The notes under the pieces: generated by a model | What the model saw: only the letters and a program-made list of their open reading frames with translations | Database searches by the model: none | Told to the model about the DNA's origin: nothing | Made by a program: the position numbers and the translations under genes | DNA from: Fibrobacter sp. UWR2 | GTDB lineage: Bacteria > Fibrobacterota > Fibrobacteria > Fibrobacterales > Fibrobacteraceae | Direction of reading: 5' to 3' | Assembly: GCF_002210285.1 (NCBI RefSeq) | Contig: NZ_MWQE01000001.1 | Location: forward strand, 496,001-560,000 | Length of the DNA stretch: 64,000 nt | Shown here: one piece after another, positions 411 to 54,950 of the stretch | How the letters are laid out: the number at the start of each line of letters is the position of its first letter | Numbering within the stretch: position 1 is the stretch's first letter

Positions 411-1964
411 CTAGTCTAGGATGGCGGGTTCTTTTTGCAACTCGTAAAAAACGCTGAGCCAGCTTTGCAGTTGCTGCCAGGTGGTGTCGCCTTTGGCCCG
501 GATGGAATCGTCGAAAGACGTGAGGAAGATTTCGTCGATTTCTCCATTGAAGGCGTTTTTCCCTCCGATACCAATGTTGAACTGCAATTCAGAAAAATCG
601 TCGCTAATTTTGATATCGGTGTTGCGGATGGTTTTCCCGTCAACGGCAATGGTCAGGTGCTTTTGCACAAAAACGACAAAGTAGTGGTGCCAGGAACCAT
701 CGAGAATTTTGGCGCTTCCGTAGAGGGTTGTGTCGGTGGATGCGGATTCAAGGCCACTATAGATTCTTGTGCAGATGGTGGCGGGGTCCTTTGAACATTG
801 CCTGATTTCAAAGCCTCCGTTGACGGAGGGTGTAGATGAAAAGATAGTGAACCCGGTGTCGGCAGGGGTTTCTCCCTTGATCCAAAAACTGAACCCTAGA
901 CTTCCGTCTTCGAACAGCGGGAATCCATCGGCATATTTGTGGACCTTGAGGTCTTTTTTTGTTGAATCCAGGTGTAGGCCGGTTCCGTAGAAGCCTTCGC
1001 TGTCGTATTCGTCCAGGTTGTAAAAGGTGTAGGGGTGGGGCCCGAAGGAAAGGTAGGTGGGCTCGATTTCGCGCAGGCTTAATACGTTTCCGTCCAGCAT
1101 GTTTGCCGAAATTTCGGGAAGGTCCATCAGCAACACTTCTTTTCCCTTGGCGGATTTTGCATCCAGCAGGTAATCGATTTCGTAGCCGTTGGCATCGATC
1201 AGGGTTGGGACTGTTTCGGACTTACTTTCCACCAAGATGGGTATGTGCTTCAGCGTGATGCCTGCATCCATGGCCTTGAGGGTTGCCACGACACTGTCGT
1301 TGAATGTCATTTTGCGGAGTCCCACCAAATAGCCGGGCTTGTTCCTGGTCACAAGGAGGGTGTCTTCAGAGCGGAAGCTCCAGTAGACGGAATCCGTCTC
1401 CGTTTCGCCTTCTGCAGTCATGATGGTGATTTTCTCAAAATAAGCATTGGGAATGCCATCGGCCAGTATGTAGCCACGGTCCACGTCTTCGGAATTCACG
1501 ACGAAGCAATTCAGCGAGCCGTCGATGCATATCGTGTCGCCAAGAGCGAGGTCGTAGGCGTTCAGTTCCAGCTTCAGGTTCGAGCCTTCGGAGACCTCAA
1601 AGCGATAGACGGAATCCTCAGGCTTCGTGATGTCGAGAATATTCCTGAAGTCCAGCAATCCGTCGGATGAGACCTGGATGTTGAAGGAGTCGCTTTTTAT
1701 ATCTTCAAAAGAGAATTTCCCGGAATCGTCGGTGGTCGTCTCCATTTCGGGATTGTCTCTCACGGCAATGAAGTCTCTCCGCATGAGGGCGACTTTGGCG
1801 CCCTTGATGGTGTTGCCGTCAAAGTCCGTCACGATGCCCGCGATGGTCTTCCCCGATTCCGTCTCGGAAATCACGCCCGCGGTGTCTTCGCCGTTGCTGC
1901 ACGCCATAAACAGCGACAGCAGTGCCGCCGCGCTAAAAAAGGAAATTTTATTTACTCCAATCAT
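411..1964 (-). CDS. Lipoprotein with regulatory-like beta domain and C-terminal LamG domain (module 1)
   Basis: A 517-aa predicted lipoprotein. The hydrophobic signal ends in a lipobox with Cys 22 (LFMACSNG). Right after it comes the stretch AGVISETES, a motif shared with the two other regulator-linked lipoproteins in this window. Residues about 37-110 resemble a carboxypeptidase-regulatory-like (transthyretin-type) beta domain. Residues about 350-500 look like a concanavalin/LamG-like jelly roll, with blocks GFSFWIKG, GSWHHYFVVF and the final FNGEIDEIF. LamG domains often bind glycans. The ATG at 1964 follows the stop of the upstream TIGR02147 gene by 2 nt, so the two are translationally linked. 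A longer in-frame reading into the regulator gene is rejected because the signal peptide starts here. The ligand is unknown. Confidence 0.82.
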   Translation of the reverse strand: MIGVNKISFFSAAALLSLFMACSNGEDTAGVISETESGKTIAGIVTDFDGNTIKGAKVALMRRDFIAVRDNPEMETTTDDSGKFSFEDIKSDSFNIQVSSDGLLDFRNILDITKPEDSVYRFEVSEGSNLKLELNAYDLALGDTICIDGSLNCFVVNSEDVDRGYILADGIPNAYFEKITIMTAEGETETDSVYWSFRSEDTLLVTRNKPGYLVGLRKMTFNDSVVATLKAMDAGITLKHIPILVESKSETVPTLIDANGYEIDYLLDAKSAKGKEVLLMDLPEISANMLDGNVLSLREIEPTYLSFGPHPYTFYNLDEYDSEGFYGTGLHLDSTKKDLKVHKYADGFPLFEDGSLGFSFWIKGETPADTGFTIFSSTPSVNGGFEIRQCSKDPATICTRIYSGLESASTDTTLYGSAKILDGSWHHYFVVFVQKHLTIAVDGKTIRNTDIKISDDFSELQFNIGIGGKNAFNGEIDEIFLTSFDDSIRAKGDTTWQQLQSWLSVFYELQKEPAILD

Positions 1965-1966
1965 CC

Positions 1967-2791
1967 CTACTCCAAATTCGAAAACAGGTGGATGTTCATC
2001 TGGTAGACGCCGTCGGCCTTTTCCTTGTCTTCGCCGATGATGCGCCTTGCCTTCGCCTTGAATTCCTGCAGTTCTGCCTCGAGTTTCTTGTATGCCTCGC
2101 TCGAGATGCTGAACGTGAGCGTGCTCATGACGGTCGGCTTTTTCGGGGGCGTCATCAGCGCCTGCTTCGAGAGCTCGAAACACTGCAACTGGTATTGCTT
2201 GATCAGGTCCGCGTTGTTGTACGGCCCGCTGCTGATGCTTTCCTTGGTGGGCTTCCAGAAGCCTTCCTCGTTCTTGCGTGCAAGCCCGAGCCTCTCCAGC
2301 AGGGCGAGCGATTCCTTGAGTTTGCCGAGCGGAACCTTCGGGAATATGCGCTTTTGCACCGGCGCCATGTCGTCGGTCACGTCCATCGCATCGAGGATGG
2401 CGAAGAGCGCGCTATTGTACCAGCGGCTGTAGTATTCGTAGGCATCCTCGTTCACGATGTGCTGCGGGTTCGGGTGCAACTTCAGTATTTCCTGCATCGC
2501 GGCATTGCGGGCGGCGTCGCTTTTCGCCTGGTCGAGCTGCACCAGCGTTTCGAAGTACTTGGCCTCTTTCTTGTCGAGTTCCAGCACCTCGATGAACTTT
2601 GCCACCATGCGGGGGGAGACCTTCTTGCCGCGGAGCACGTCGGCGAAGTAGCTGCGGCTCTTCTCGAGCCCGAGCATGTTGCAGATTTCGGTACGGGTAA
2701 AGGCCGGCTCCACCTTGGCGCGGGCGGCCTGGTATTCTTCCAGGAACTTGCGGAAGTGCGTAAACTGGAATATGTCTAAAAAACGATTCAC
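1967..2791 (-). CDS. TIGR02147/DUF4423 family predicted regulator (module 1)
   Basis: A 274-aa protein of the Fibrobacter 'second paralogous family' TIGR02147. It opens with an IFQFTHFRKFLEEY block, followed by an XRE-like helix-turn-helix (about residues 31-75, with FTRTEICNMLGLEKSRSYFADVL split by the recognition turn). The rest is an all-helical DUF4423-type domain containing the conserved aromatic YEYYSRWYNSALF region. The likely role is DNA-binding control of the adjacent lipoprotein gene, but this is inferred from the fold and coupling only. The start is GTG at 2789-2791, with TATATT 6 nt upstream and no usable Shine-Dalgarno. The lipoprotein follows after 2 nt. It is divergent from the M6 protease gene. 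Confidence 0.85.
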   Translation of the reverse strand: MNRFLDIFQFTHFRKFLEEYQAARAKVEPAFTRTEICNMLGLEKSRSYFADVLRGKKVSPRMVAKFIEVLELDKKEAKYFETLVQLDQAKSDAARNAAMQEILKLHPNPQHIVNEDAYEYYSRWYNSALFAILDAMDVTDDMAPVQKRIFPKVPLGKLKESLALLERLGLARKNEEGFWKPTKESISSGPYNNADLIKQYQLQCFELSKQALMTPPKKPTVMSTLTFSISSEAYKKLEAELQEFKAKARRIIGEDKEKADGVYQMNIHLFSNLE

Positions 2792-19643: not shown

Positions 19644-20306
19644 ATGAAGTTGAAAATATGCGTTTTGTTTTTGTTTGCTGTGGCATGTCTCGTCATGGAG
19701 GGGTGCTCGGCATACGATTATACCGAACATGAGAGCACATTGGATTCGGCTAAGGTTTATTCCGCATGCTGGCCGGCAGCAGATTCAGCCCTGCTAGATT
19801 TCCTTGCCGACACGGCTTATTCCGGAATGGTTGTCTACGGCAACTATATGGCACGCTCAAAAGAAATGAAACGCGATACCTCGAAGAATTCTACGATATA
19901 CAGGTTTTCTGTCGCGGGCGATGTCAAGCCGGAAAAGGATGTCTTTTCCATTAAGCTTGTCTTGGAATACAAGGTAGTGGATGATGCCTACGGAACCCAG
20001 GAATATGGTGACTCACTGTTTGTCGATATCTACGGGTGTCGCGATTATGGATGTAAGCTGGCTGAAAAGGTTGTGCTCCGTAATGGCGATTACAGTTTTA
20101 CCAAGTTGCTCAAGAAGGGTGAGTTTGAAATATCTAGCCCGAAAGGCGATTTCTTTTCGGTTGAAGCCGGGTACGATTGCGATGTGGTCAAGGAATACTT
20201 TTTCCACCTGAATATCGACCTGGACGATGTCAAGATTGATCTGGATGCACAGAAGGGTTCTGAAACTTGTTCCTATAGGTCTTCGAAATGGTGTCTTTAT
20301 TGCTGA
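19644..20306 (+). CDS. Hypothetical lipoprotein, first gene of a two-gene unit
   Basis: A 220-aa protein with a hydrophobic signal and a lipobox at Cys 21 (VMEGCSAYDY). The mature part is acidic and beta-rich, and has several cysteines (for example in DIYGCRDYGCKL and the terminal SKWCLYC) that could form disulfides outside the cytoplasm. I recognise no domain. Its stop codon shares one base with the start of the next lipoprotein gene, which has the same Y-x-E-N/H style acidic beginning after the lipobox. The two probably act together at the envelope. Confidence 0.75.
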   Translation: MKLKICVLFLFAVACLVMEGCSAYDYTEHESTLDSAKVYSACWPAADSALLDFLADTAYSGMVVYGNYMARSKEMKRDTSKNSTIYRFSVAGDVKPEKDVFSIKLVLEYKVVDDAYGTQEYGDSLFVDIYGCRDYGCKLAEKVVLRNGDYSFTKLLKKGEFEISSPKGDFFSVEAGYDCDVVKEYFFHLNIDLDDVKIDLDAQKGSETCSYRSSKWCLYC

Positions 20307-32412: not shown

Positions 32413-32604
32413 TGTGGAAATGAAACTCTAATGCTGGAAATTATTTCCTAGATATTAAATTACCTACTCGAAAAGTCAAAAAGGCTGTGTTTTAGAACAA
32501 TTCATTGTATTTTTTTCAATGGCGATGTTTTCTTTAGGGGCTTTTTGGGCTAGGAATAGATTATTTTATTGATTGGATAGTTGTCTTTTTTCGAGAACTG
32601 GCCT

Positions 32605-33459
32605 ATGCTCAACATTGACGAAATCAGCGATTACAGGGATTTGCTCAAGAACTACTATACCCAGCGCAAGCTGGATATGCCCTTGTATTCCTATAAGATG
32701 ATGGGCCAGAAGCTTGGGCTCGAGACGAGCCAGATGTTCCGTGTGCTGAACAAGGAACTTCACCTGCCGAACCGCAGCATTCCGCTGGCGAAGGACCTGC
32801 TGGACCTGAAGGGTCGCAGTGGTGAAATTTTCGAAATCCTGGTGGCGGCATCCAAGACGAAGTCGCCTGCGAAGAAGGATAAGCTCTACAAGATGGCGCT
32901 TTCGCTCCAGGATGTGGACCTTCGCAAGTTCAATGCCAGCGAGTACCTGTTCCTGAGCAAGTGGTGGATACCCGTGGTGCGAGCGCTTATCGAGATGAAT
33001 GGAGGGCATGCCGAGGTCTCGCGCCTGGTAAAGCAGATATCTCCGGCCGTCTCGGAAGACCAGGTGCGCGAAGCCATAAAGGTACTCAAGGATTTGAATC
33101 TCATAACGCCGCTTGCTTCGGAACGCTATGCCGCGACGACCGCCAATTTTACGTCGGCAGGTTCGCCGACGAAGACGTCGGCTATCCGTAGTTACCAGAA
33201 TCAGCTTTTGTCGCTTGCCCAGAACGCCCTCGTTTCGGTAGAGCCTGCCAAGCGCAATATCTCGTCGTTGCTTGTGGGTGTCGACGAAGATTGCTTTGCC
33301 GACCTGAACGAAATGACGCTGGAATTCCGCCGCCAGGTACAAAAGAGGGTGGCTGAAGTCGACAAGCCGAATCGCGCGATGCAGTTCGTGTTTGCACTAT
33401 ATCCGGTCGCGGATGTTTCCAATAGCCCGCGGACAAAGAAAGAGGGGGTAAAGGTATGA
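32605..33459 (+). CDS. TIGR02147/DUF4423 family predicted regulator (module 2)
   Basis: A 284-aa member of the same family as the genes at 1967-2791 and 44299-45132. It has the opening DEISDYRDLLKNYY block, a putative XRE-like HTH (about 28-65, SYKMMGQKLGLETSQMFRVL), and the helical DUF4423 region with FLSKWWIPVVRALIEM. A TTG at 32581 would add eight residues. The ATG at 32605 is preferred because the DYR block then sits at residues 9-11, as in the third copy. No strong ribosome site is visible for either, so the start is uncertain. Its last four bases overlap the lipoprotein start (ATGA). Confidence 0.82.
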   Translation: MLNIDEISDYRDLLKNYYTQRKLDMPLYSYKMMGQKLGLETSQMFRVLNKELHLPNRSIPLAKDLLDLKGRSGEIFEILVAASKTKSPAKKDKLYKMALSLQDVDLRKFNASEYLFLSKWWIPVVRALIEMNGGHAEVSRLVKQISPAVSEDQVREAIKVLKDLNLITPLASERYAATTANFTSAGSPTKTSAIRSYQNQLLSLAQNALVSVEPAKRNISSLLVGVDEDCFADLNEMTLEFRRQVQKRVAEVDKPNRAMQFVFALYPVADVSNSPRTKKEGVKV

Positions 33460-34655
33460 AAAAGTTGCTTTTACTCCTGATGGTTCTGCTGTTTGTCGCC
33501 TGCTCGAACGATAAGGTGGCCGGTATCAGTACGGTCGAGACCGAAAACGCCTACCTGATCCAGATTGTTCACGAGGATTCCTTGCCCGCGGTCGGTGTCT
33601 TGGCCCGCATGCGTGCGGCAAGTTTTGTCCGCAGTGTTGAAGAAGATTCCGCAGGGGCGGAATACTACGAGGAATTCGTGACCGATTCCTTGGGGCAGAT
33701 TCGCATTGATAGCCTCGGCGTAAAAGAGGCTACGATTGAAATTGTCGATGCAGACGAAGGTTTGTTCACCAGGATCCGCGCCAAGGATATCAGGAGCGGA
33801 GACTCCGTACAGTATGCTCTCGAAAAAACAGGCCGCCTGCGTGGCAAGGTTTACTTGCCTGCGGGCGTTGACTACGCTTGGGTACAGGTGTATGGTTCCG
33901 ACCGCCTTGTAAAGACCGATAGCGAGGGCTTCTACGAGATGGATTCGTTGCCGCCGTATGAATACGGCCTGCGCGTCATTGTGGGTGACAGTGTTGTTGA
34001 AAATTCGGCGAAGGTTGGTGCCGGCGAGGAGGCTCGCGCGAATGTTTGCGCGTTCGAACCGGATTCCATCAAGGTGCTGGACTTTGAATCTGCGGATGCG
34101 CAGTTTGTTATCCGCGAGCTCGGTATAAGCGAGGCGGGTTACATGTCTTCTACGGATACGAGCGTGAAGACGACACCCGAGGTGGCGATGGTACCCGAGA
34201 CGCGCAAGGACATTGCGGATTTCTTTGTAGAAGCGGATGCCGGCCGCGCCGGTAACGCCTTGCACTGGATGTCTTCTGCGGGGCAAGGACGCTGGTCGTT
34301 CTACGGAATCTGGGTTTGTACGGAGGAATCGCCGTGCGATTTGTCTGCAACGGATTCCATCGTGTTCTATGCCCGCGGGAACGGAGTCATTTCGATTGCG
34401 CTCGAGACGCTCGGCAGTTCGAACGAAGAAGGCAAGACTTTGGCTTACGATACCCTCAATACAGACGAATGGCAGCGTCGCGTCATAAAGCCTGCTAATT
34501 TCAAGCCGCGCGACGACATGTACGGCAATCTCGGCTGGAATGTTGTCAGCAGGGCGGTGACGACCATCTCGATAGCCTCCTACGACGAGACCGAATTCTG
34601 GATAGACGATGTCGTGTTCTACGGCATCAAGCCCAGCGACTTCATCGTCAAATAA
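33456..34655 (+). CDS. Lipoprotein with a carbohydrate-binding-like C-terminal domain (module 2)
   Basis: A 399-aa lipoprotein with its lipobox at Cys 16 (LLFVACSNDK). Immediately after comes VAGISTVETENA, the AG..ET motif shared by the three regulator-linked lipoproteins. Residues about 30-190 contain two short beta domains like carboxypeptidase-regulatory repeats (for example GRLRGKVYLPAG, SEGFYEMDSLP). Residues about 205-395 form a jelly-roll resembling CBM11/CIA30-type galactose-binding domains, with blocks NALHWMSSAGQG, DSIVFYARGNG, EWQRRVIKP and EFWIDDVVFYG. Sugar binding is plausible but unproven. The 3' end overlaps the convergent pseudouridine synthase gene by 8 bases. Confidence 0.82.
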   Translation: MKKLLLLLMVLLFVACSNDKVAGISTVETENAYLIQIVHEDSLPAVGVLARMRAASFVRSVEEDSAGAEYYEEFVTDSLGQIRIDSLGVKEATIEIVDADEGLFTRIRAKDIRSGDSVQYALEKTGRLRGKVYLPAGVDYAWVQVYGSDRLVKTDSEGFYEMDSLPPYEYGLRVIVGDSVVENSAKVGAGEEARANVCAFEPDSIKVLDFESADAQFVIRELGISEAGYMSSTDTSVKTTPEVAMVPETRKDIADFFVEADAGRAGNALHWMSSAGQGRWSFYGIWVCTEESPCDLSATDSIVFYARGNGVISIALETLGSSNEEGKTLAYDTLNTDEWQRRVIKPANFKPRDDMYGNLGWNVVSRAVTTISIASYDETEFWIDDVVFYGIKPSDFIVK

Positions 34656-44121: not shown

Positions 44122-44259
44122 CATAGTTACGGTTTTTCTGAGGTGTAGGCCTAATTTCTCAAATTTGGCCGTTTTTGTATCATAGATTTTGAGATTTTTT
44201 CAATTACAACAAAAAACAACGAAATTTTGCAAAAAACACAAATTTTGTATCGCAAAATA

Positions 44260-44288
44260 TTGACAAACGAATAAAAATAAACTATATT
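44260..44288 (+). promoter_or_regulatory. Consensus sigma70-type promoter of regulator 3
   Basis: TTGACA (44260-44265), a 17-base spacer, then TATATT (44283-44288). The expected transcription start is only about 3-4 nt before the ATG at 44299, and no Shine-Dalgarno exists in the 10 bases between. This is the best -35/-10 pair in the window. Confidence 0.75.
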
Positions 44289-44298
44289 CCTGTATACA

Positions 44299-45132
44299 AT
44301 GAAGCCGATAACCGATTATGTGGATTACCGACGCTACATGCAGGACTTTTACGATGAACGTAAGAGGACTTCTGCGTTTACGTGGCGCGAATTTGCACGC
44401 TTGGCCGGCTTTGTGTCGCCGACGTATTTGAAGCTCGTCTGTGAGGGGAAGACGAGACTAAAGAACGATGGCGTGGAACGGACCGCATTGGCTATGAGGC
44501 TGGTGGGTTACGAAGTGGATTACTTCCGCATGATGGTCAGATATGCCCATGCAAAGACGGACTACGAACGTAAAAAGGCGTACGACGAAATGCTGAGCAT
44601 AGCGGGGGAGCATAAGGTTAAGGTTGTCGATGAAGACGCTTTCGCCTACTTTGAGACCTGGAAGAATCCCGTAATCCGTGAACTGGCGCCCATAATGCCA
44701 GGGGCGAAGCCCGGGGATATCGCGAAACTCTGCTGTCAGGGGGTTTCTGCGGGCGATGTGCGCGAATCCTTGGACTTTATGACCAAAGCAGGCCTCCTGA
44801 AGAAGGACAGGAAGGGCAACTACACCCAGACCGATAAGGCTCTAAGAGGTGATTCCGAGGTCATGCCCGTGGCGATCCGTTCCATGCATCGTGAAATGGC
44901 TAAATTCGGCCTTGCCGCTATCGATGACTTTGCCCTGTCGGACCGAAATATTTCGGGTGTCACCATGGGCGTGGACCGGGCCGCCTACGAACAAATTCTG
45001 CAGGAACTCGAAGCTTTTCGCCGTAGGATTGTGACCATAGCGAACGCTACGAAGAAAGTAACACAGGTATATAGACTAAATTTGCAGTTGTTCCCCCTTT
45101 CGTGGACTGTACCTGATGAGAAGAACGATTGA
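44299..45132 (+). CDS. TIGR02147/DUF4423 family predicted regulator (module 3)
   Basis: A 277-aa member of the same family as the genes of modules 1 and 2. The start block ITDYVDYRRYMQDFY is followed by an HTH-like region (about 28-62, FTWREFARLAGFVSPTYLKLV) and the helical DUF4423 part with EDAFAYFETWKNPVIREL, matching YEYYSRWYNSAL in copy 1. The C-terminal TQVYRLNLQLFPLS also matches GVYQMNIHLFSNL of copy 1. It has a strong promoter (TTGACA-17-TATATT). Its end overlaps the lipoprotein gene by 17 bases. Confidence 0.86.
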   Translation: MKPITDYVDYRRYMQDFYDERKRTSAFTWREFARLAGFVSPTYLKLVCEGKTRLKNDGVERTALAMRLVGYEVDYFRMMVRYAHAKTDYERKKAYDEMLSIAGEHKVKVVDEDAFAYFETWKNPVIRELAPIMPGAKPGDIAKLCCQGVSAGDVRESLDFMTKAGLLKKDRKGNYTQTDKALRGDSEVMPVAIRSMHREMAKFGLAAIDDFALSDRNISGVTMGVDRAAYEQILQELEAFRRRIVTIANATKKVTQVYRLNLQLFPLSWTVPDEKND

Positions 45133-45952
45133 CAACTGGAAAACGTTGTTGGGCATTGTCGCCTTGCTGAGTTTCGCATGCACGCGCGACGTGGCGGGAA
45201 CAACCGAAGAAACCAATGCGCTTGCGCATGATGAATCGTCGTCGTCGCTTGGTGGAAAATCGAGTTCTTCTTACAGCGAATTGCCTAGTTCTTCAGGATC
45301 TGTTGGCATATCGTCTGGAGTTTCCGATTCGTCCCAGGTGCCTTCGGATTCGCTGAACGACAATGTGCTGAATGGCCGATACTGGAATACCTTCAGGAAG
45401 GAAGACGGTGTTTCTGACCTTGTGTCGGTGAATATGGAGGTTGATGAACAGGAAGGCGTCTATGTCTCGTATGCGTTAGCGGGCTCGCCTTATGGTGGTG
45501 TGGTCGGTGCGTCGAGAAAGACAACCTTCGGTGTTTCCATCAAGGTTGACGGAAGTGAAGAAAATGCGTATTCCGATATGAAGACCTGGACAAGTGGCGC
45601 GTGCTACATGGTGACGTCTGATGCGCCGATTATCCTGAAGATGGGTATGTCGCCGGAGAAGGAAAGGGAACTGGAGTATGACCTGCCGCAGGCGACACTT
45701 GTTGGGCCTGGCGAGGTTGGCAATCTGGTACTTCGTTGCCTGAGCTGGCTTGATTTCGAACAGCAGGGATTTGGCCCGAGCATAACCATTGAAGAAGCCT
45801 TCTTCGATTACATGACTGAACTTCGGTTTGAACTGCAAATTGAAGGGGACAACTTCGAAGGATCGTTTAAGATAAGCCAGATCCGTCGTGGCGGCACGGG
45901 TATCAGTGCGGATGTCGACGGCACGGAAGTCCATTTAAACGACGGTGAATAA
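45116..45952 (+). CDS. Lipoprotein with serine-rich linker and unknown C-terminal domain (module 3)
   Basis: A 278-aa lipoprotein with its lipobox at Cys 22 (LLSFACTRDV), then AGTTEETNA, the shared AG..ET motif. Residues about 40-80 are a Ser-rich linker (ESSSSLGGKSSSS and similar), typical of Fibrobacter surface proteins. The C-terminal 190 residues form a beta-rich domain (GRYWNTFRKEDG, FGVSIKVDGSEENAYSD, CYMVTSDAPI), perhaps a carbohydrate-binding jelly roll like its module 2 counterpart, though I cannot assign a family. It begins within the regulator gene, so their synthesis is coupled. A terminator follows. Confidence 0.78.
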   Translation: MRRTIDNWKTLLGIVALLSFACTRDVAGTTEETNALAHDESSSSLGGKSSSSYSELPSSSGSVGISSGVSDSSQVPSDSLNDNVLNGRYWNTFRKEDGVSDLVSVNMEVDEQEGVYVSYALAGSPYGGVVGASRKTTFGVSIKVDGSEENAYSDMKTWTSGACYMVTSDAPIILKMGMSPEKERELEYDLPQATLVGPGEVGNLVLRCLSWLDFEQQGFGPSITIEEAFFDYMTELRFELQIEGDNFEGSFKISQIRRGGTGISADVDGTEVHLNDGE

Positions 45953-47632: not shown

Positions 47633-47879
47633 GTAAATGGAGGAATTGTGGCAGACGGTGGAAATCCTGTCTACATCTTTCGCGCTTTTTTAAGGCTTTT
47701 TTTGTGCTGAAAAATTGTTTTATGGCGTTTTATAGAATGGTTATCAAGGTGAAAAAGAGGGGGTAAATGAGTGTGAGAACTTTTGGAGAACACTTTTTTG
47801 TTACGAAAAAAATATATCGGTATGGTTTCGCTTTTTTAGAGATAAATTTATGTTGTTGGGAAAAAATAGGAGGGGACTT

Positions 47880-50800
47880 ATGTCCTTAAAGAATGGTCTT
47901 TTGCCATTTTTGTTGTTCGTGGTTGTGGCCACGGCGGCAATGCAGGAGCAGCCGACACCATATGACTTAATACGGCCGGTATGGCCACTTTCGTGGGACA
48001 GTACCGTATTCTCTAACCGTTTCGTTGCCGGCCCCAAGCGTAACTCTCTGCCAGATATTAACACTCCGGCGGCGTATGCGCCTAACGAGATGATTCCGGA
48101 TACGCTGAACCAGGCGTTTATCGATGCCATGCTGGTGGATATTTCGCCCATACGCGTCAACCAGGCCGGCTATCGCCCGCAAGATGTCAACAAGTCGGTC
48201 TATTACGTCGGCTCGGCTACGAGTTTCCAGGTGGTCAATGCGGCTGGCGATGTCGTGGGACAGGGAAATTTTTCAGAGACGCTCGCCAGCAGCGTCTCGT
48301 CATCCCTGACTATCAGGGCTTCGAATAACGCCCAAATAACGACGGGCGGCGACACCCGCTATACGGTTTCCGGTACTGGCCCTTCGGGGGCTCTCAAGAA
48401 GGGTCAGCTCCCCGATGGTCTGCCTGAAAATGAACGCCTCCGTATCAAGGTGGGGGATGAGTATTCGTCTACGTTTATCATCAGCGACAGGGTGTATTCC
48501 ATGCTGCGCGATGCCGTGCTCAAGTTCTATGGAGTGAATCGCAGTGGCAATTCCGAATCGTGGTTCCATGAGCCGAGCCACTTGAAAGACGGCTCGCTTG
48601 CCAACGTGGATATGACGGGCGGTTGGTACGATTGTGGCGACCACCTTAAGGAAAGCCAGACGATTGCCTATAGTTTTGTCCAGCTTGCGCTTATGGATGC
48701 CGTCTATGCGGAACGTGATCAGGACAACTATGCGTTTAACCAGGGCGAAACGGAGAATACCGACGGTGTGCCGGATATTCTCAGGGAAGCGAGGTTTGGT
48801 GCCGAATATGTGTTGAAGGCTTACGATGCTGCAAATGGTGTAATTTCTGCGATGCCGGTCTCTGTTGGCCGTATCGGCGCGGATCATGGATGGTGGGGGC
48901 CTCCCCAGGCTCAGGACGGAACTCTCGAAGATAGGGGCGGGCCTACGAGCAGAATTCTGAGAAGTGATGATCATCCTGATTCAAAAGCGGAACTCGCGAG
49001 TTCTGCCGGAGGCAACTTTGCTGCGGGTTTGGCCCTGTTGGCCAAGCGGTTTTCCGATACGACATCCCTGCTTGTTCCGGATACCGCATTTGCGCAGAAG
49101 TGCCTGAAGGTGGCGAGGGAACTTTATGAATACGGCAAGTCAAAAAAGGGTAACGCAAGTACGATGGCTTATAGCGGCGCGACCAAGTTCTATGATGAAA
49201 TGGGCTTGGCAGCAATAGCTCTTTTCTATGCGACTGGCGAGAAGAAGTACCTGAACGATGCCGTGGAGGAATCTTCCATGGCGAGTGGGCAGACGAAGAA
49301 GGACTTTGCCAATGCCGACAAGAAGGGCGCCGGTATGTTCAATGGCGGATGGTTCGCTTATGAAGAGGCTTCTTTCCTTAAAGGGACTACGGCATCCGAC
49401 TGGGCGAGCCTTTTCACGAGCGCTCTTTATGCTTTCTATAAACTGATTCTGGAAACCCGCGAAAAGGCTGAATCCTATGGCCTTTCGGACGAACAGAGAA
49501 TGATTTACGTCGAGGATGTCGCCTTTACCATGGCGGCAAATCTTGGTGCAGTCATGTCGGGTGGATCGCAAAAAATTCTGCTTCCTTCGGGGCAAGCCAG
49601 TTGGGTCGGGGCCACGGTGACTTACGATTCGGTTTGGGGATTGACAAACTCCGTAAATCCTGAGCAGTGGTGGACAAAATACGAAGCTTCCAATATCTTT
49701 GAACTGTTGGCGTATTACGACGTGACGAAGGATTTGGAAAATGTCATCATGCCTCAGACCGGGACTTTCCAGGATTGGAAATCGGAAGAAATTCTGAATC
49801 TCGCCGTTTCGCACATGAATTACTTCCTTGGCATGAACCCGTGGGATGTTTCCCTTGTTTATGGCGTGGGTGACAAGAACCATTCGCATCCGCATCACCG
49901 CGGTTCCAACCCGGAGGGGAAAAATGTCGCCGGATTTACGGATACGTACAAGTACCGCCCGCCGGTGGGTGGCTTGGGTCCGGCGAAGCATGGAACGGGA
50001 ATGGATGACTTGTCAGTCCACTTCGATGACTATCACCTGACGGAAAATACCTGTATCGATGCCGTTTCGAACTTTTTGCCGGCTACGGTCATTCTGTCCA
50101 AGTCGGAGGACCTCAATCGCGCGCCGTCGATGAAGGTGGAAATACGTCACGTGAGCATGGACTCGGCTATCGTTGTTGTAAAACTCGACCTGAACGGATA
50201 TGCCTATATTGCGCTTGATACTGCAGATAACGTTGCTCAACCTACGATTGTTTCTTCCGAGACGCCGTCGAACAATCACCAGATTGTCTTGCGCGATTTG
50301 TTGCCGGGAACGACTTACTATTTCTATGCGATATCGACGAACCCGAGAAGTGGAAATACCTCGAAAAAGTGGCTGGTGGATAGCCTGCAGACTCCCTTCA
50401 GTTTTACTACGCTAAACATGGTCGAGAATGCGGATATCCAGAATGTTACGGTGTGTAACCTGAGTGCAGACAGTGCCGAAATCATGTGGTACACTCCAAA
50501 CGGCGAATACGAATCCAAGGTGTACTGGGATACGGTTCCGCATACGAATCCGAACGAATTTGCCCACAATACTGGAGCGGGCAATGCGGATGTTTCTGGC
50601 GTGCCGACCAAGTTCCATTATGTAAAGATCGGTGGACTCAAGGAAAGGACCACATACTACTATGCTGTGGAAAGCAACGGTGCTTATACGAATACTGATT
50701 CTTCTGGCAGTATCTTGAAGTTCACGACGCCCGTGACACAGTACGACTTTGCTGTTCGCATGTCCCAGTACGTGTGGGACCCGATGCCTGCGCTAGAAAT

Positions 50801-53800
50801 CAATGTCATCAATAACGAGGAACGCCCGTTTGACAGCCTGACCCTTCGCCTCTACATGCGCGGTACCGATGAAATCTATTACGATGTCGGAATCAGGCGC
50901 GATATTTGCCAGGCCTACAGCGAAGCTGCCTTTAATTTGCCCTGTTCTCCGGAAACCCAGGCTGAATTGGATGGGCTTTTCCGTGTGACGTTCCCGAAGA
51001 AGATTGAGGATACTTATGACCCGACGGACGGTACGTGGCAATGGTATTTCCCGATTCCGCTTGGCTCGACCGTCATCAAGTCATCAAGCCGTATGAGAAT
51101 CGATGTGGTGTTCGACAGGCGCAGCGAATGGGAACCGCATCTGGACCTGATGAACGATACGCCCAAGAAGCGGTTCTACTGTAACGATAACGGGACCTGG
51201 GAATCCCAGGCGGGTGATCATCTGCCGCAGAATCCGGGTGACTGGAGCTGGATGCCGCACAGCAAGGCGAACGGCGATTATGCCGATTTTGAAGGTATAC
51301 CGTGCCTGCCCAAGAATTTTGGTGACGATGATCTTGCTCCTATAAATCCCTACGTTTCCGTTTACCGCAAGGACGAATTCGTGTGGGGGTATAGCCCATC
51401 TAAATCGGAAATGTCGACCAAGAAGGCCAACTACAAGCTGGAAGTTACTTTGGATGCTCCGTTCAATGTGTCCAACGGCAGTTACGTAGAAATTGACCAG
51501 ACGAGCAAGACAGTGAATGTGAAGGGCCACGCCCATATTACCGAGAACGGCTACATCACGCAAATCTGGGCAAACGGCGTGAAGCTTGAAACGGAATACA
51601 TGCTCCAGGATAACGAAAGCTACCTCTTGCACGATGGTAAAATCATCGCGCATTACAATCTTGCCACGGACCTTTGGGATTTGGATATCCCCGTGCGCAT
51701 GAATGTGGGTAGCAACAAAATTGACATAACTGTATTTGCCGGCCCCAACCCCGAATGTGCTGAATGCGCCGAGAATGGCGGCTGCGCTTTTGAAAACCGC
51801 AGTTATTACGTGCGCTTCAACCGCCCGAATATGACGGAGGGTGTGCTCACGGTGAAGGATATTGCCGGTGGGCCTGTCGGCAACAACGGTGTTGTGGACC
51901 CCGAGGCGAGGCAGAAGTTCTATGTCTACTTGAATGATAAGGACAAGGCGAATACGTCGAGTACAATCACAGTAAACGTAATCAACGGCAAAAAGCAGGA
52001 TACGCTGAAGGTCGTGATGGAATCGATCGGGGAAGGTCTCTTCCGCAGCAAGAACCCGATTGTGGCGGTGCCTACGGTGAAGGGGAGCCATGGCTCTGAC
52101 GAGATAACGTTCTTTGCCGGCGATACCATTTATGTAGAGTACCAGGATCCGGACGATGACGAGGACTATAGCCGGATTACGGCGTTCTTTGCCGAATCAA
52201 ACTACCCGACTCCGCAGAAGGTCGTCGCCATGGATTCCGATTGCGACGACAGGGCGGACAAGCTTGTCGTGTACTTCAGCAACGTCCTTGATGAAAACTA
52301 TTCGTTTACGCAGATGAAGGTGCTTGTGGATGGAATGGCGGATACGGCGTTGATTGACGTTCCTCAGCCTGTGACGGGCCTTTCCGAGGTAACGGTTCCA
52401 CTAGGTGCAAGTCTCGGAATCGCAAAGACGGCAAGCCCGGGCGGTGCTGCCGTAGTGTTCCTCAAGAATGGCGGTGAAGTAGTCGAAGAGAAGGTCAAGA
52501 TTACGGACGGTATTGCTCCGCAACTCCTGAGTGTCACTATCCTCGAGAATCCTGGCCACGAGGTGGAGCAGGACACGGTGATGGTCGCTTTCAACGAGCC
52601 GGTTGAACTGCAGTCGCTTACCACATGGCCGCTTGAGATTGCGGGCGCCCCTGCGGGTGTGTCGCTGAATGTCGTGGGCAAGGCGACCACAACCACGAAT
52701 GGGAAGAGCTGGCTGTATGTGGTAACGGACAACGATAATGGAGCCGTTATCCCGCTGGGTGGCAAGGCGACGGTCAAGGCCGGGTTCGGAGTGATGGACA
52801 ATGCCATGAATGCGCTGGACCCTGCGGCAGCATGCAAGGTGGTGCGTGTTGCCGAGACGCCGAGACCTGTTCCGGTGAAACTTGCAGAGATGCGTGATTT
52901 CGAAGGCGACGGATATGCCGATGAATTCTACATGCTTTTCGAGAAGCGCCTGCGTCCTAGGGACATGCTCGATAGTTTTGTTGTGGACTGGGGCATGAAT
53001 GCCGTCGAGAAGAGTTTTGTCACGGAGGCGGATACCAGTTCGGGGAAGATTGTCCCGAAGGACAATTCCTGGACCATCAGGGATTCCCTTTCCGCTCCTT
53101 ACGACAAGTGGATTGATTCTACCACGAAGGTTACGGCTGTAGATACGTTCAGCATCGTGACCATCGGAATGAATCCGTCGAACGGATTCGGGGAAGGGCT
53201 TACCAGCGGTGCGTACGATGGATACGGGCGTGTTACACCGAGGCTTGGCCCCGAAGGAGGATTCTTCGATAGGTTCTATTATGTGGTGGACAAGTGCCCG
53301 CCGGTGCTTATGGGGGGCAAGGCTGATTCTGCCGGCGAGTATCTGAATCTTACCGTTACTGCGTCTGAACCGTTGGCTCTTCTGGATAACGAACAGCTTG
53401 AGTATGTCGAGCGCGAACGTGGTGGTGTGGCGGGAGTGTTCCTGCGTAGTGCACGATCGGTCCGCCAGAGTGGCGCAAGACAGTTGTTCACCTATAAGGC
53501 TGATGCTGACGATGCCATCCGTGCCGGCGATTCTATTCGCCTGCCGGTACTTGCAAGCCGCTACAGGGATGTGACGGGCAATGCTCCGACGGCGCAGAAC
53601 CCATGGCGCATGGTTACGGGTGCGACAGGCAAGACGAAGTTCGTGGTCACCCTGGAAAAGGGCGTTACCGGTGCCTCTGGGGATGCTTCCGGCTATGGTA
53701 TGTTCCAGCCCGATGCTGACGAATACTTCCGTATCAGCGTGGTGAAGGATGGACAGGAACGGTTGACGAGTCTTGTGGACAACTCGCTAGTTCCTGGCAT

Positions 53801-54227
53801 GGATGTCGATTCGCTGAACTACAGGCATTCTGGCCCTGTGTTCAATATCGATATCACGTTGCCGCTGGCGCTAATGACGGATACCGCCAACGGGGGCGGG
53901 ACAGCCATGTTCGCCGTCAAGGTGTCTTTCAGCGTCGATGTCTATGACAACCTAGGCCAGTATATCAATACGCTGCATGTCAATATCGATGCGGAGACGG
54001 TACGGGAAATCATTTCGTCGGATGGAGTCATCCACCTGCATCTGGAATGGCTTGCCCACGATGGTGAGGCGCCCAAGTCCAAGGCGGGCAAGAAGGTCGG
54101 AACAGGAGCATATATAGCGAAGTTTAAGTTCAAGGCCCGCGAGGTGAACCTGAAAACGCAGGACACTCACATGATAACGGACGACAAGACGAAAACGTTC
54201 GGCTTTAAGCGTGCTAGGAGAAGATAA
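47880..54227 (+). CDS. Giant secreted GH9 family protein (cellulase-type) with FN3 and other accessory domains
   Basis: A 2,115-aa secreted protein. The ATG at 47880 is chosen because AGGAGGGGA lies just upstream and the signal peptide (LLPFLLFVVVATAA) starts there. Next come the CelD-type Ig-like domain (about 90-180, RVNQAGYRPQ) and the GH9 catalytic domain (about 200-740). The catalytic aspartates lie in GGWYDCGDH (Asp251, Asp254), the HPHHRGS motif is near 670, and the general-acid Glu722 is in HLTENTCIDAVSNF. Two FN3-like domains follow (about 750-930), then about 1,000 residues of beta domains. The tail has FlgD-like features (VDVYDNLGQYINTL, then GTGAYIAKF). It should cleave beta-1,4-glucans at the cell surface. 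A terminator follows at 54241. Confidence 0.9.
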   Translation: MSLKNGLLPFLLFVVVATAAMQEQPTPYDLIRPVWPLSWDSTVFSNRFVAGPKRNSLPDINTPAAYAPNEMIPDTLNQAFIDAMLVDISPIRVNQAGYRPQDVNKSVYYVGSATSFQVVNAAGDVVGQGNFSETLASSVSSSLTIRASNNAQITTGGDTRYTVSGTGPSGALKKGQLPDGLPENERLRIKVGDEYSSTFIISDRVYSMLRDAVLKFYGVNRSGNSESWFHEPSHLKDGSLANVDMTGGWYDCGDHLKESQTIAYSFVQLALMDAVYAERDQDNYAFNQGETENTDGVPDILREARFGAEYVLKAYDAANGVISAMPVSVGRIGADHGWWGPPQAQDGTLEDRGGPTSRILRSDDHPDSKAELASSAGGNFAAGLALLAKRFSDTTSLLVPDTAFAQKCLKVARELYEYGKSKKGNASTMAYSGATKFYDEMGLAAIALFYATGEKKYLNDAVEESSMASGQTKKDFANADKKGAGMFNGGWFAYEEASFLKGTTASDWASLFTSALYAFYKLILETREKAESYGLSDEQRMIYVEDVAFTMAANLGAVMSGGSQKILLPSGQASWVGATVTYDSVWGLTNSVNPEQWWTKYEASNIFELLAYYDVTKDLENVIMPQTGTFQDWKSEEILNLAVSHMNYFLGMNPWDVSLVYGVGDKNHSHPHHRGSNPEGKNVAGFTDTYKYRPPVGGLGPAKHGTGMDDLSVHFDDYHLTENTCIDAVSNFLPATVILSKSEDLNRAPSMKVEIRHVSMDSAIVVVKLDLNGYAYIALDTADNVAQPTIVSSETPSNNHQIVLRDLLPGTTYYFYAISTNPRSGNTSKKWLVDSLQTPFSFTTLNMVENADIQNVTVCNLSADSAEIMWYTPNGEYESKVYWDTVPHTNPNEFAHNTGAGNADVSGVPTKFHYVKIGGLKERTTYYYAVESNGAYTNTDSSGSILKFTTPVTQYDFAVRMSQYVWDPMPALEINVINNEERPFDSLTLRLYMRGTDEIYYDVGIRRDICQAYSEAAFNLPCSPETQAELDGLFRVTFPKKIEDTYDPTDGTWQWYFPIPLGSTVIKSSSRMRIDVVFDRRSEWEPHLDLMNDTPKKRFYCNDNGTWESQAGDHLPQNPGDWSWMPHSKANGDYADFEGIPCLPKNFGDDDLAPINPYVSVYRKDEFVWGYSPSKSEMSTKKANYKLEVTLDAPFNVSNGSYVEIDQTSKTVNVKGHAHITENGYITQIWANGVKLETEYMLQDNESYLLHDGKIIAHYNLATDLWDLDIPVRMNVGSNKIDITVFAGPNPECAECAENGGCAFENRSYYVRFNRPNMTEGVLTVKDIAGGPVGNNGVVDPEARQKFYVYLNDKDKANTSSTITVNVINGKKQDTLKVVMESIGEGLFRSKNPIVAVPTVKGSHGSDEITFFAGDTIYVEYQDPDDDEDYSRITAFFAESNYPTPQKVVAMDSDCDDRADKLVVYFSNVLDENYSFTQMKVLVDGMADTALIDVPQPVTGLSEVTVPLGASLGIAKTASPGGAAVVFLKNGGEVVEEKVKITDGIAPQLLSVTILENPGHEVEQDTVMVAFNEPVELQSLTTWPLEIAGAPAGVSLNVVGKATTTTNGKSWLYVVTDNDNGAVIPLGGKATVKAGFGVMDNAMNALDPAAACKVVRVAETPRPVPVKLAEMRDFEGDGYADEFYMLFEKRLRPRDMLDSFVVDWGMNAVEKSFVTEADTSSGKIVPKDNSWTIRDSLSAPYDKWIDSTTKVTAVDTFSIVTIGMNPSNGFGEGLTSGAYDGYGRVTPRLGPEGGFFDRFYYVVDKCPPVLMGGKADSAGEYLNLTVTASEPLALLDNEQLEYVERERGGVAGVFLRSARSVRQSGARQLFTYKADADDAIRAGDSIRLPVLASRYRDVTGNAPTAQNPWRMVTGATGKTKFVVTLEKGVTGASGDASGYGMFQPDADEYFRISVVKDGQERLTSLVDNSLVPGMDVDSLNYRHSGPVFNIDITLPLALMTDTANGGGTAMFAVKVSFSVDVYDNLGQYINTLHVNIDAETVREIISSDGVIHLHLEWLAHDGEAPKSKAGKKVGTGAYIAKFKFKAREVNLKTQDTHMITDDKTKTFGFKRARRR

Positions 54228-54284: not shown

Positions 54285-54950
54285 CTAGCGGAACCTTCTC
54301 GCGCCCTGATACTTGTTCTTGTAATATTTCTCGTTCAGGTTCGAGATGACGACGCCTCTGCTGGAACTTGCGTGGATGAACCTGTCGCCGCTCAGGTAGA
54401 TGCCTACATGGCTGATGTTCCAGAAGCTTCCGAAGAAAAGCAGGTCGCCTTCGCGCAGGCTGCCGCGGCCTACACTTTTCCCGCGGGGGTCCTTGTACAT
54501 CCTTGCCGCACTGTGGTCTAGTGCGATATTGTAGTAGCCCTTGAATACCTGCATCACAAACCCGGAGCAGTCTGTCTGGGTCTTGCTTGCCGCGCCGTAC
54601 ACGTATTTTGCACCGAGCCATCCTTTGGCGTAGGTTTCGAAGTCCGGTGTCGGGAGCGCCCTTTGTGCGGCCTTTTCCGCTTCTTTCCTGTTCGCCGCGG
54701 CTCTCGCCTTGTCGGCAGAATTCATGTGCTTCGGCTTGGGTTCGCTAGCCGTGGAATCCGGTTTTGCTGCGGTATCTTCCGCCTTGTGCGTTTCTTGTGC
54801 CGGAACTTCTGTAACCTGCTCAGTTGCGTGAATGGGTTTGTAGTCGCCGATGTTGCGGTCGTAACCCGTGCGTTCGGGAAAGGTGCAGCAGAGCAACCCT
54901 GCGCAGAACGGCAAAAGCATTAGGCTTGCGATTTTTGAAGACAGACCCAT
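54285..54950 (-). CDS. NlpC/P60 family lipoprotein peptidase
   Basis: A 221-aa envelope protein. A signal with an adjacent Cys pair (GLLCCTF) suggests lipid attachment. A Pro/Lys/Ala-rich linker (about 45-100) is followed by the NlpC/P60 domain with the catalytic Cys in QTDCSGFVMQVF, His in NISHVGIYLSG, and a third polar residue in RFIHASS. Such enzymes cut stem peptides of peptidoglycan (gamma-D-Glu-diaminopimelate bonds) and help cell separation or wall turnover. It lies 29 nt downstream of the BACON-like lipoprotein gene. Confidence 0.92.
   Translation of the reverse strand: MGLSSKIASLMLLPFCAGLLCCTFPERTGYDRNIGDYKPIHATEQVTEVPAQETHKAEDTAAKPDSTASEPKPKHMNSADKARAAANRKEAEKAAQRALPTPDFETYAKGWLGAKYVYGAASKTQTDCSGFVMQVFKGYYNIALDHSAARMYKDPRGKSVGRGSLREGDLLFFGSFWNISHVGIYLSGDRFIHASSSRGVVISNLNEKYYKNKYQGARRFR

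Follow-up and report, generated by a model that had tools for sequence, protein, structure and literature searches.

Three copies of a two-gene unit were found in the window, by which we mean the whole 64,000-nucleotide stretch of Fibrobacter sp. UWR2 DNA analyzed here. At each place a gene of the TIGR02147/DUF4423 family is followed, practically gaplessly, by a lipoprotein gene (Table 1). All three regulators score above the curated cut-offs of TIGR02147 (50) and PF14394 (30). A signal peptide and a lipobox Cys can be read in each partner, giving predicted lipoproteins of 518, 399 and 278 aa that carry CSNGEDTAGVISETES (module 1, Cys codon at 1901, minus strand), CSNDKVAGISTVETEN (module 2, Cys codon at 33501, plus strand) and CTRDVAGTTEETNA (module 3, Cys codon at 45179, plus strand). 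Searches of Pfam and NCBIfam with the module 3 lipoprotein returned zero matches. A preliminary description of this DNA reported a short motif just behind the lipidated Cys of the three partners; all three motif peptides lie at the positions claimed, and the motif is indeed absent from the lipoprotein-like ORFs at 19644, ~20306, 54285 and 54980. The span assigned to it, 44299–45952, covers the module 3 regulator and lipoprotein, but modules 1 and 2 fall outside. The ORF at 54285–54950 (minus strand) is an untagged lipoprotein with an NlpC/P60 domain, and 47850–54227 hold a 2125-residue ORF that resembles a cellulase of glycoside hydrolase family 9 to which many further domains have been added.

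Table 1 Features of the three modules and of the DNA upstream of module 3 (window positions unless stated otherwise).
Feature	Position	Strand	Basis and remarks
Module 1 TIGR02147/DUF4423 regulator	1967..2791	-	TIGR02147 289.6 bits, PF14394 90.2 bits; start codon uncertain
Module 1 lipoprotein, CarboxypepD_reg and Laminin_G_3 domains	411..1964	-	Domain matches, sequence reading
Module 1 tag AGVISETES, 7 residues after lipobox Cys	1854..1880	-	Profile 35.9 bits (training row)
Module 1 tag profile match	G000:C1:497830-497934		Contig coordinates
Module 2 TIGR02147/DUF4423 regulator	32581..33459	+	TIGR02147 152.9 bits, PF14394 74.1 bits
Module 2 lipoprotein	33456..34655	+	4 nt overlap with regulator stop; CarboxypepD_reg below cut-off
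Module 2 tag AGISTVETEN	33519..33548	+	Profile 43.6 bits (training row)
Candidate operator, direct repeat copy 1 TTTTTGTATC	44172..44181	+	Sequence reading
Direct repeat copy 2 ATTTTGTATC	44242..44251	+	70 bp on; 8 bp before TTGACA -35
Sigma70-like promoter TTGACA-17-TATATT	44260..44288	+	Read from sequence; start codon after 10 bp
Module 3 TIGR02147/DUF4423 regulator	44299..45132	+	TIGR02147 306.1 bits, PF14394 100.8 bits
Module 3 lipoprotein, Ser-rich linker after tag	45116..45952	+	Sequence reading
Module 3 tag AGTTEETN	45194..45217	+	Profile 39.6 bits (training row)

The pattern first proposed, AG-x(3,4)-ET, is real but represents the form that a longer motif takes here. That motif is approximately [AS]G-x(0-4)-[ST][ED]x[GETS]N (hereafter the tag), and its clearest form outside Fibrobacterota is G[TGS][ED]xGN[PGA], e.g., GTEVGNP. 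Of 281 partners, 223 had enough sequence for a strict-pattern count. The strict form G-x(0-5)-[STGVI][ED][TVIAEL][GETS]N occurred in 86/223 within the first 42 residues after the signal-peptide core and in 2/223 within the 42 residues that follow, which served as an internal control. A looser expression used to pick tags matched 179/223 first segments, yet also 56/223 control segments, and our claims are therefore based on profiles and strict patterns. The acidic residue of the tag lies a median of 11 residues behind the lipobox Cys (range 4–27, n = 109), and several tags are immediately followed by Ser-rich linkers.

The host genome (G000, 3.28 Mb) contains 31 TIGR02147 genes above the cut-off and likewise 31 for PF14394. 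Directly after 30 of these 31 genes stands an exported lipoprotein-like ORF, mostly a tagged lipoprotein; at the exception (C10:52957) the operon reads away from the regulator and a tagged gene lies ~2.8 kb off. A tag profile (A1) was built from 27 of the 30 own-genome partner N-termini, omitting as divergent L004, an IEIGNP variant, and L007 and L010, whose tags are doubtful. In G000 it gave 29 matches of at least 28 bits, namely the 27 training rows, C1:93214 and the C10 gene; the next matches scored 23.6 bits or less, and the one of these that was inspected (C1:485520, L060) proved to be an untagged lipoprotein. The gene at C1:93214 (L048) is a second tagged lipoprotein gene in tandem behind one regulator, and in G005, by coordinates only, tagged lipoprotein genes stand in a row behind one regulator (C62:64550, 67175 and 70429).

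Each of nine Fibrobacter genomes carries 23–45 copies of TIGR02147. Linkage was tested in three other species of the genus that had supplied zero training rows (G002, G004 and G006), which together have 85 TIGR02147 genes and yielded 75 tag matches at E ≤ 0.01. The proportion lying 0–300 bp downstream of TIGR02147 on the same strand was 10/10 for matches of at least 35 bits, 21/22 at 30 bits or more, 40/42 at 25 bits or more, 53/67 at 20 bits or more and 55/75 for all matches; in the reverse view, a tag was detected 0–300 bp behind 55/85 TIGR02147 genes. Two unlinked matches in these genomes proved to be divergent neighbors, 175 bp off. A true orphan tag (33.3 bits) is that of the lipoprotein L142 (G002:C4:93471), which has no TIGR02147 gene closer than 27.6 kb, and another tag stands alone at G006:C9:90342. 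Spacing within the pairs is tight, the partner starting no more than 25 nt behind the regulator stop in 265/281 cases, and divergent regulator–partner pairs retain the tag.

Linkage extends beyond the genus. By coordinates, 15/16 A1 matches (E ≤ 0.01) in four genomes from outside the genus, of which three also lie outside the family, fall directly behind TIGR02147; the sixteenth is in a 45-residue frame. A1 had zero matches in G015, though the tags of this genome are plain by eye. A wider profile (A5; 41 rows, some from G015 and none from G010, G013 or G030) was applied to five genomes with TIGR02147 and gave 29 matches at E ≤ 0.05, to which G019, with its two TIGR02147 genes, contributed none. 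TIGR02147 lies directly upstream, within 1.5 kb, of 27 of these 29 matches. The remaining two are L309, at a contig edge where a TIGR02147 fragment is left, and L319, a later gene ~1.9 kb behind G015:C13:107999-108826. The nine matches in G015 are not independent because some A5 rows came from that genome. Among 80 sampled Fibrobacterota genomes 73 have TIGR02147 (E ≤ 1e-20); in the seven that lack it, 0/7 had an A5 match at E ≤ 0.01, and there was one match at 0.04. We had to consider whether the tag is equally common in lipoproteins unlinked to TIGR02147. It is not, and nearly all tags are linked. The tag as a general lipoprotein feature was rejected, since profile matches are tied to TIGR02147, and the "module tag" of the preliminary description holds and is wider than first seen.

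Three Fibrobacterota regulators were used as queries against 84,980 species genomes and produced 65 loci. Judged by eye, with the weak cases L237 and L243 included, the tag is present at 41 of them (12/13 in Fibrobacterota and 29/52 in others); six loci have an exported neighbor without a tag and 18 have no exported neighbor. Carriers outside Fibrobacterota are assigned to Myxococcota, Bdellovibrionota, Thermodesulfobacteriota, one Nitrospira bin and bins titled Deltaproteobacteria, and since these cross-phylum genomes are mostly metagenome bins, single phylum names may be wrong. At L233 and L235 the tag is on a divergent gene. A DNA pattern for GT[ED][TVAIM]GNP had 14 matches in 16 non-Fibrobacterota genomes and its reversed control had one; 12 of the 14 are lipobox N-termini with TIGR02147 directly upstream, of which seven had led to the choice of these genomes and five are new, and two are not exported N-termini. 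A Bdellovibrio protein used as lone query gave no match. On a Bdellovibrio plasmid (L219; AP029177.1, 37256-38808) a TIGR02147-like gene overlaps by 4 nt an exported-protein gene whose product shows no clear tag. At two loci (L259 and L270, ~910–980 bp past the match start) a single exported protein bears the tag twice, as GGEMGNG..GAEMGNG in L259 and as two copies of GTEVGNGGP in the 71-residue protein of L270.

The description of the tag as a lipoprotein feature applies to the window partners but not to several partners outside Fibrobacterota, which carry it without a lipobox Cys; at L248, L250, L256, L269, L272 and L273, GGE-x-GN follows the signal peptide with no such Cys directly before it. 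This bears on the possibility that the tag directs sorting in the envelope or display at the surface and is read, once the protein has been exported, by a dedicated machine in the manner of the Bacteroidota lipoprotein export signal (LES); the class of surface proteins that bears it would then always be under TIGR02147. The tag does sit directly behind the lipidated Cys, includes an acidic residue and fronts unrelated bodies, and Fibrobacter tags often start CSD or CSN, recalling the SDDDD and SDDFE consensus given in part of the LES literature (PMC5080379). This likeness to the start of the Bacteroidota LES keeps sorting a serious rival. However, a sorting signal would be expected on many unlinked lipoproteins, and nearly all matches are linked; genomes without TIGR02147 have no tag match at E ≤ 0.01; exported proteins without a lipobox Cys bear it too; and its sequence misfits C-X-K-(D/E)2. 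We regard sorting as a somewhat unlikely explanation.

The constraint acts at the protein level, and synonymous sites are free. At the seven motif codons of 34 scan-locus tags, third-base identity is close to that expected from the genes' own codon usage (observed/expected 0.261/0.275, 0.346/0.299, 0.526/0.521, 0.273/0.282, 0.323/0.268, 0.513/0.509 and 0.336/0.295 for positions 1–7), with position 5 lying 1.8 sd above. Amino-acid counts at these codons are biased by the expression that selected them, a bias from which the codon test is free. The 54 bodies behind tags fall into 25 blastp clusters, with Pfam matches that include CarboxypepD_reg, Laminin_G_3, Beta_propel and Big_5. Thus a short peptide is kept as codons and bodies change. 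A tag that belongs to one domain fold was rejected on the same 25 clusters and on the Ser-rich linkers behind several tags. An operator, attenuator or leader in DNA or RNA at the start of the partner gene, with the peptide as its by-product, would account for the fixed place just behind the regulator stop, but the agreement of observed and expected third-base identity makes it the least probable of the explanations we weighed. Very improbable as well is hitch-hiking, by which an inert ancestral N-terminus was copied with the regulator whenever the pair duplicated. Pairs are mostly adjacent and co-inherited, as this would have it, yet the tag has been kept across phyla despite free synonymous sites, replaced bodies and sometimes divergent gene order.

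The predicted model of the module 3 regulator (mean pLDDT 90.9, pTM 0.58) has a DNA-binding fold, with a HigA-like HTH at residues 8–90, a winged helix from ~103 and then two long helices. Residues 8–89 align with the HigA antitoxin (9chn_C; Z 8.8, 74 residues, 2.3 Å) and residues 104–265 with CzrA of the ArsR/SmtB repressors (1r1u_A; Z 8.4, 83 residues, 4.2 Å), likenesses of structure only, with middling Z and a common arrangement. The best Foldseek hits of the model in the PDB were MarR proteins (E 0.023), and a sequence search of solved structures with the regulator gave nothing useful. By hydropathy, 306/307 regulators have no membrane-like segment.

Partnerless regulators differ from tag-paired ones at several columns. 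In a tree of 58 regulators (alignment A4; 55 of the 65 scan regulators plus the three from the window), 9/12 partnerless members fall in one Bdellovibrionota-rich clade with support 100/100, so the losses represent few independent events. Position 216 is R in 121/121 tag-paired regulators and in 2/12 partnerless ones, and H197, S219, R241 and P266 are likewise kept in the former and changed in the latter. Four related exported partners lack the tag, and their regulators retain R216. Tags with P at the sixth place pair with H197 in 40/40 cases. By DSSP, residues 190 and 197 share a helix at a distance of seven residues, as do 234 and 241 on the helix that follows, which places each pair on one helix face; together the four may form one pocket.

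Covariation was analyzed in the 121/281 pairs whose tag has the anchoring N. Beyond overall distance, tag distance correlates with single regulator columns up to r = 0.229 (permutation 95% 0.116), the top columns being 234, 259, 117, 147, 217, 190, 220 and 119. After thinning to 60% identity three columns pass, with 234, 259 and 197 at the top; among the 40 scan loci alone no column passes. The signal is strong against permutation and flanking hexamers, the latter being a weak control since they are near saturation (mean distance 0.90). Pseudo-tags made of six random HTH columns had maxima averaging 0.248 across the C-terminal columns, compared with 0.229 for the real tag, and the columns of the candidate patch, taken together, score no higher than those of the HTH (p 0.22 and 0.09). 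In the thinned set 7/10 top C-terminal columns lie within seven residues of H197, R216, S219, R241 or P266, a count that pseudo-tags reached in 5/400 and row-permuted tags in 31/400 trials; unthinned, 6/10 lie near these five loss columns (pseudo-tags 40/400, row-permuted tags 67/400). Covariation and loss patterns are therefore suggestive of one regulator patch, with the HTH-column pseudo-tag control not beaten.

The gene order makes it likely that the TIGR02147 regulator controls its own cassette. Upstream of module 3 there are two copies of the repeat TTTGTATC, and the regulator mRNA is possibly leaderless, to judge from a start codon 10 bp past the −10 box. Among the 31 regulators of the host genome, paired direct repeats upstream fall in the 70–74 bp spacing bin at 9/31 loci and in any other 5-bp bin at no more than six. 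The nine sets of ~70 bp-spaced repeats are similar in arrangement and different in wording.

The regulator shows no export signal and is apparently cytoplasmic, so any contact with the tag would have to precede export, unless the tag is re-imported as a peptide. Of the two roles suggested in the preliminary description, sorting and partner recognition, we favor the second, with the regulator itself as the putative partner. We hypothesize, with a probability of about 0.45, that the tag is recognized by the C-terminal domain of the cognate regulator before export. The module would then be a two-gene cassette of a TIGR02147 regulator and an overlapping or adjacent exported-protein gene, in which the partner's mature N-terminus carries a short tag, ancestrally perhaps close to G-T-E-x-G-N-P, as a putative recognition element for the neighboring regulator. 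The tag of the unexported precursor may be bound by regulator helices ~188–210 and ~227–250 with their connecting loop and by the final stretch at ~257–267, and DNA binding and cassette expression would track the amount of partner awaiting export. The near-exclusive pairing, the joint loss and the presence of the tag regardless of lipidation and body are more easily reconciled with an element at the service of the regulator than with one at the service of sorting.

Cross-talk is to be expected, because a genome may have up to ~30 paralogues with nearly the same tag, and this counts against recognition by the cognate regulator, as do the few tags that stand alone and the four untagged partners whose regulators retain R216. 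That many paralogues within a genome carry almost the same tag would fit better with a common periplasmic or outer-membrane partner, for which the tag would be a post-export ligand or docking strand, the regulator reporting on the pathway indirectly; doubled tags in one protein (L259, L270) and in tandem genes (L048) point the same way. Such a common envelope partner leaves one regulator per tagged gene unexplained, and we consider it quite unlikely. If recognition before export is correct, TIGR02147 proteins could be intracellular receptors of an export substrate's N-terminal "address" that sense the partner's exit. Because paralogues share nearly the same tag and operators seem private, overproduction of one tagged protein could simultaneously reset many cassettes, rationing or mutually excluding dozens of surface proteins, an extension we think unlikely.

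With the pairing described here, an unnamed paralogous family becomes a defined two-gene system, and the tag offers a means of finding and naming its exported partners in Fibrobacter, in myxobacteria and among relatives of Bdellovibrio. It also becomes testable whether a transcription factor binds the N-terminus of its own unexported partner. NCBIfam lists TIGR02147 (Fsuc_second; DUF4423, PF14394) only as a paralogous family, with no tag or partner in the model. In the one open-literature collection searched, no mention was found of TIGR02147, GTEVGNP, TETGNP or Fibrobacter together with DUF4423, and DUF4423 itself appears only in a table row for Bdellovibrio Bd3700. The portion of the Fibrobacter S85 genome paper drawn on here makes no mention of the TIGR02147 family (PMC3079729), and part of the S85 envelope proteome report lists cellulose-associated lipoproteins with carboxypeptidase regulatory-like domains (PMC6851124). 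In the open literature searched, no counterpart is described for a motif behind the signal peptide that pairs nearly one-to-one with a family of transcription factors across several phyla.

Two known systems invite comparison. Like the LES, the tag is short, acidic and placed directly behind the lipidated Cys of unrelated proteins. The Bacteroidota LES, in the portion of its description drawn on here, is of C-X-K-(D/E)2 or S-D-D type without a fixed G-N (PMC5080379), and the tag consensus shows neither C-X-K-(D/E)2 nor an S-(D/E)-rich stretch at +2 to +6. The tag differs in being G..[ED].[GETS]N, tied to one regulator family and present also without lipidation. 

RRNPP-type sensors (Rgg-SHP, PlcR-PapR, PrgX-cCF10) combine an HTH regulator, a C-terminal sensing domain and a short cognate sequence encoded next door. 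TIGR02147, with its HTH at the N-terminus (residues 8–90), may work in a like manner, a comparison of working only. Its partner, however, is a full-length exported protein rather than a short secreted pro-peptide, the model of the regulator has a winged helix and further helices in its C-terminal part, and the hosts are Gram-negative; among the structural matches listed for the module 3 regulator a TPR-type peptide-binding chain is absent, a listing that does not by itself exclude one.
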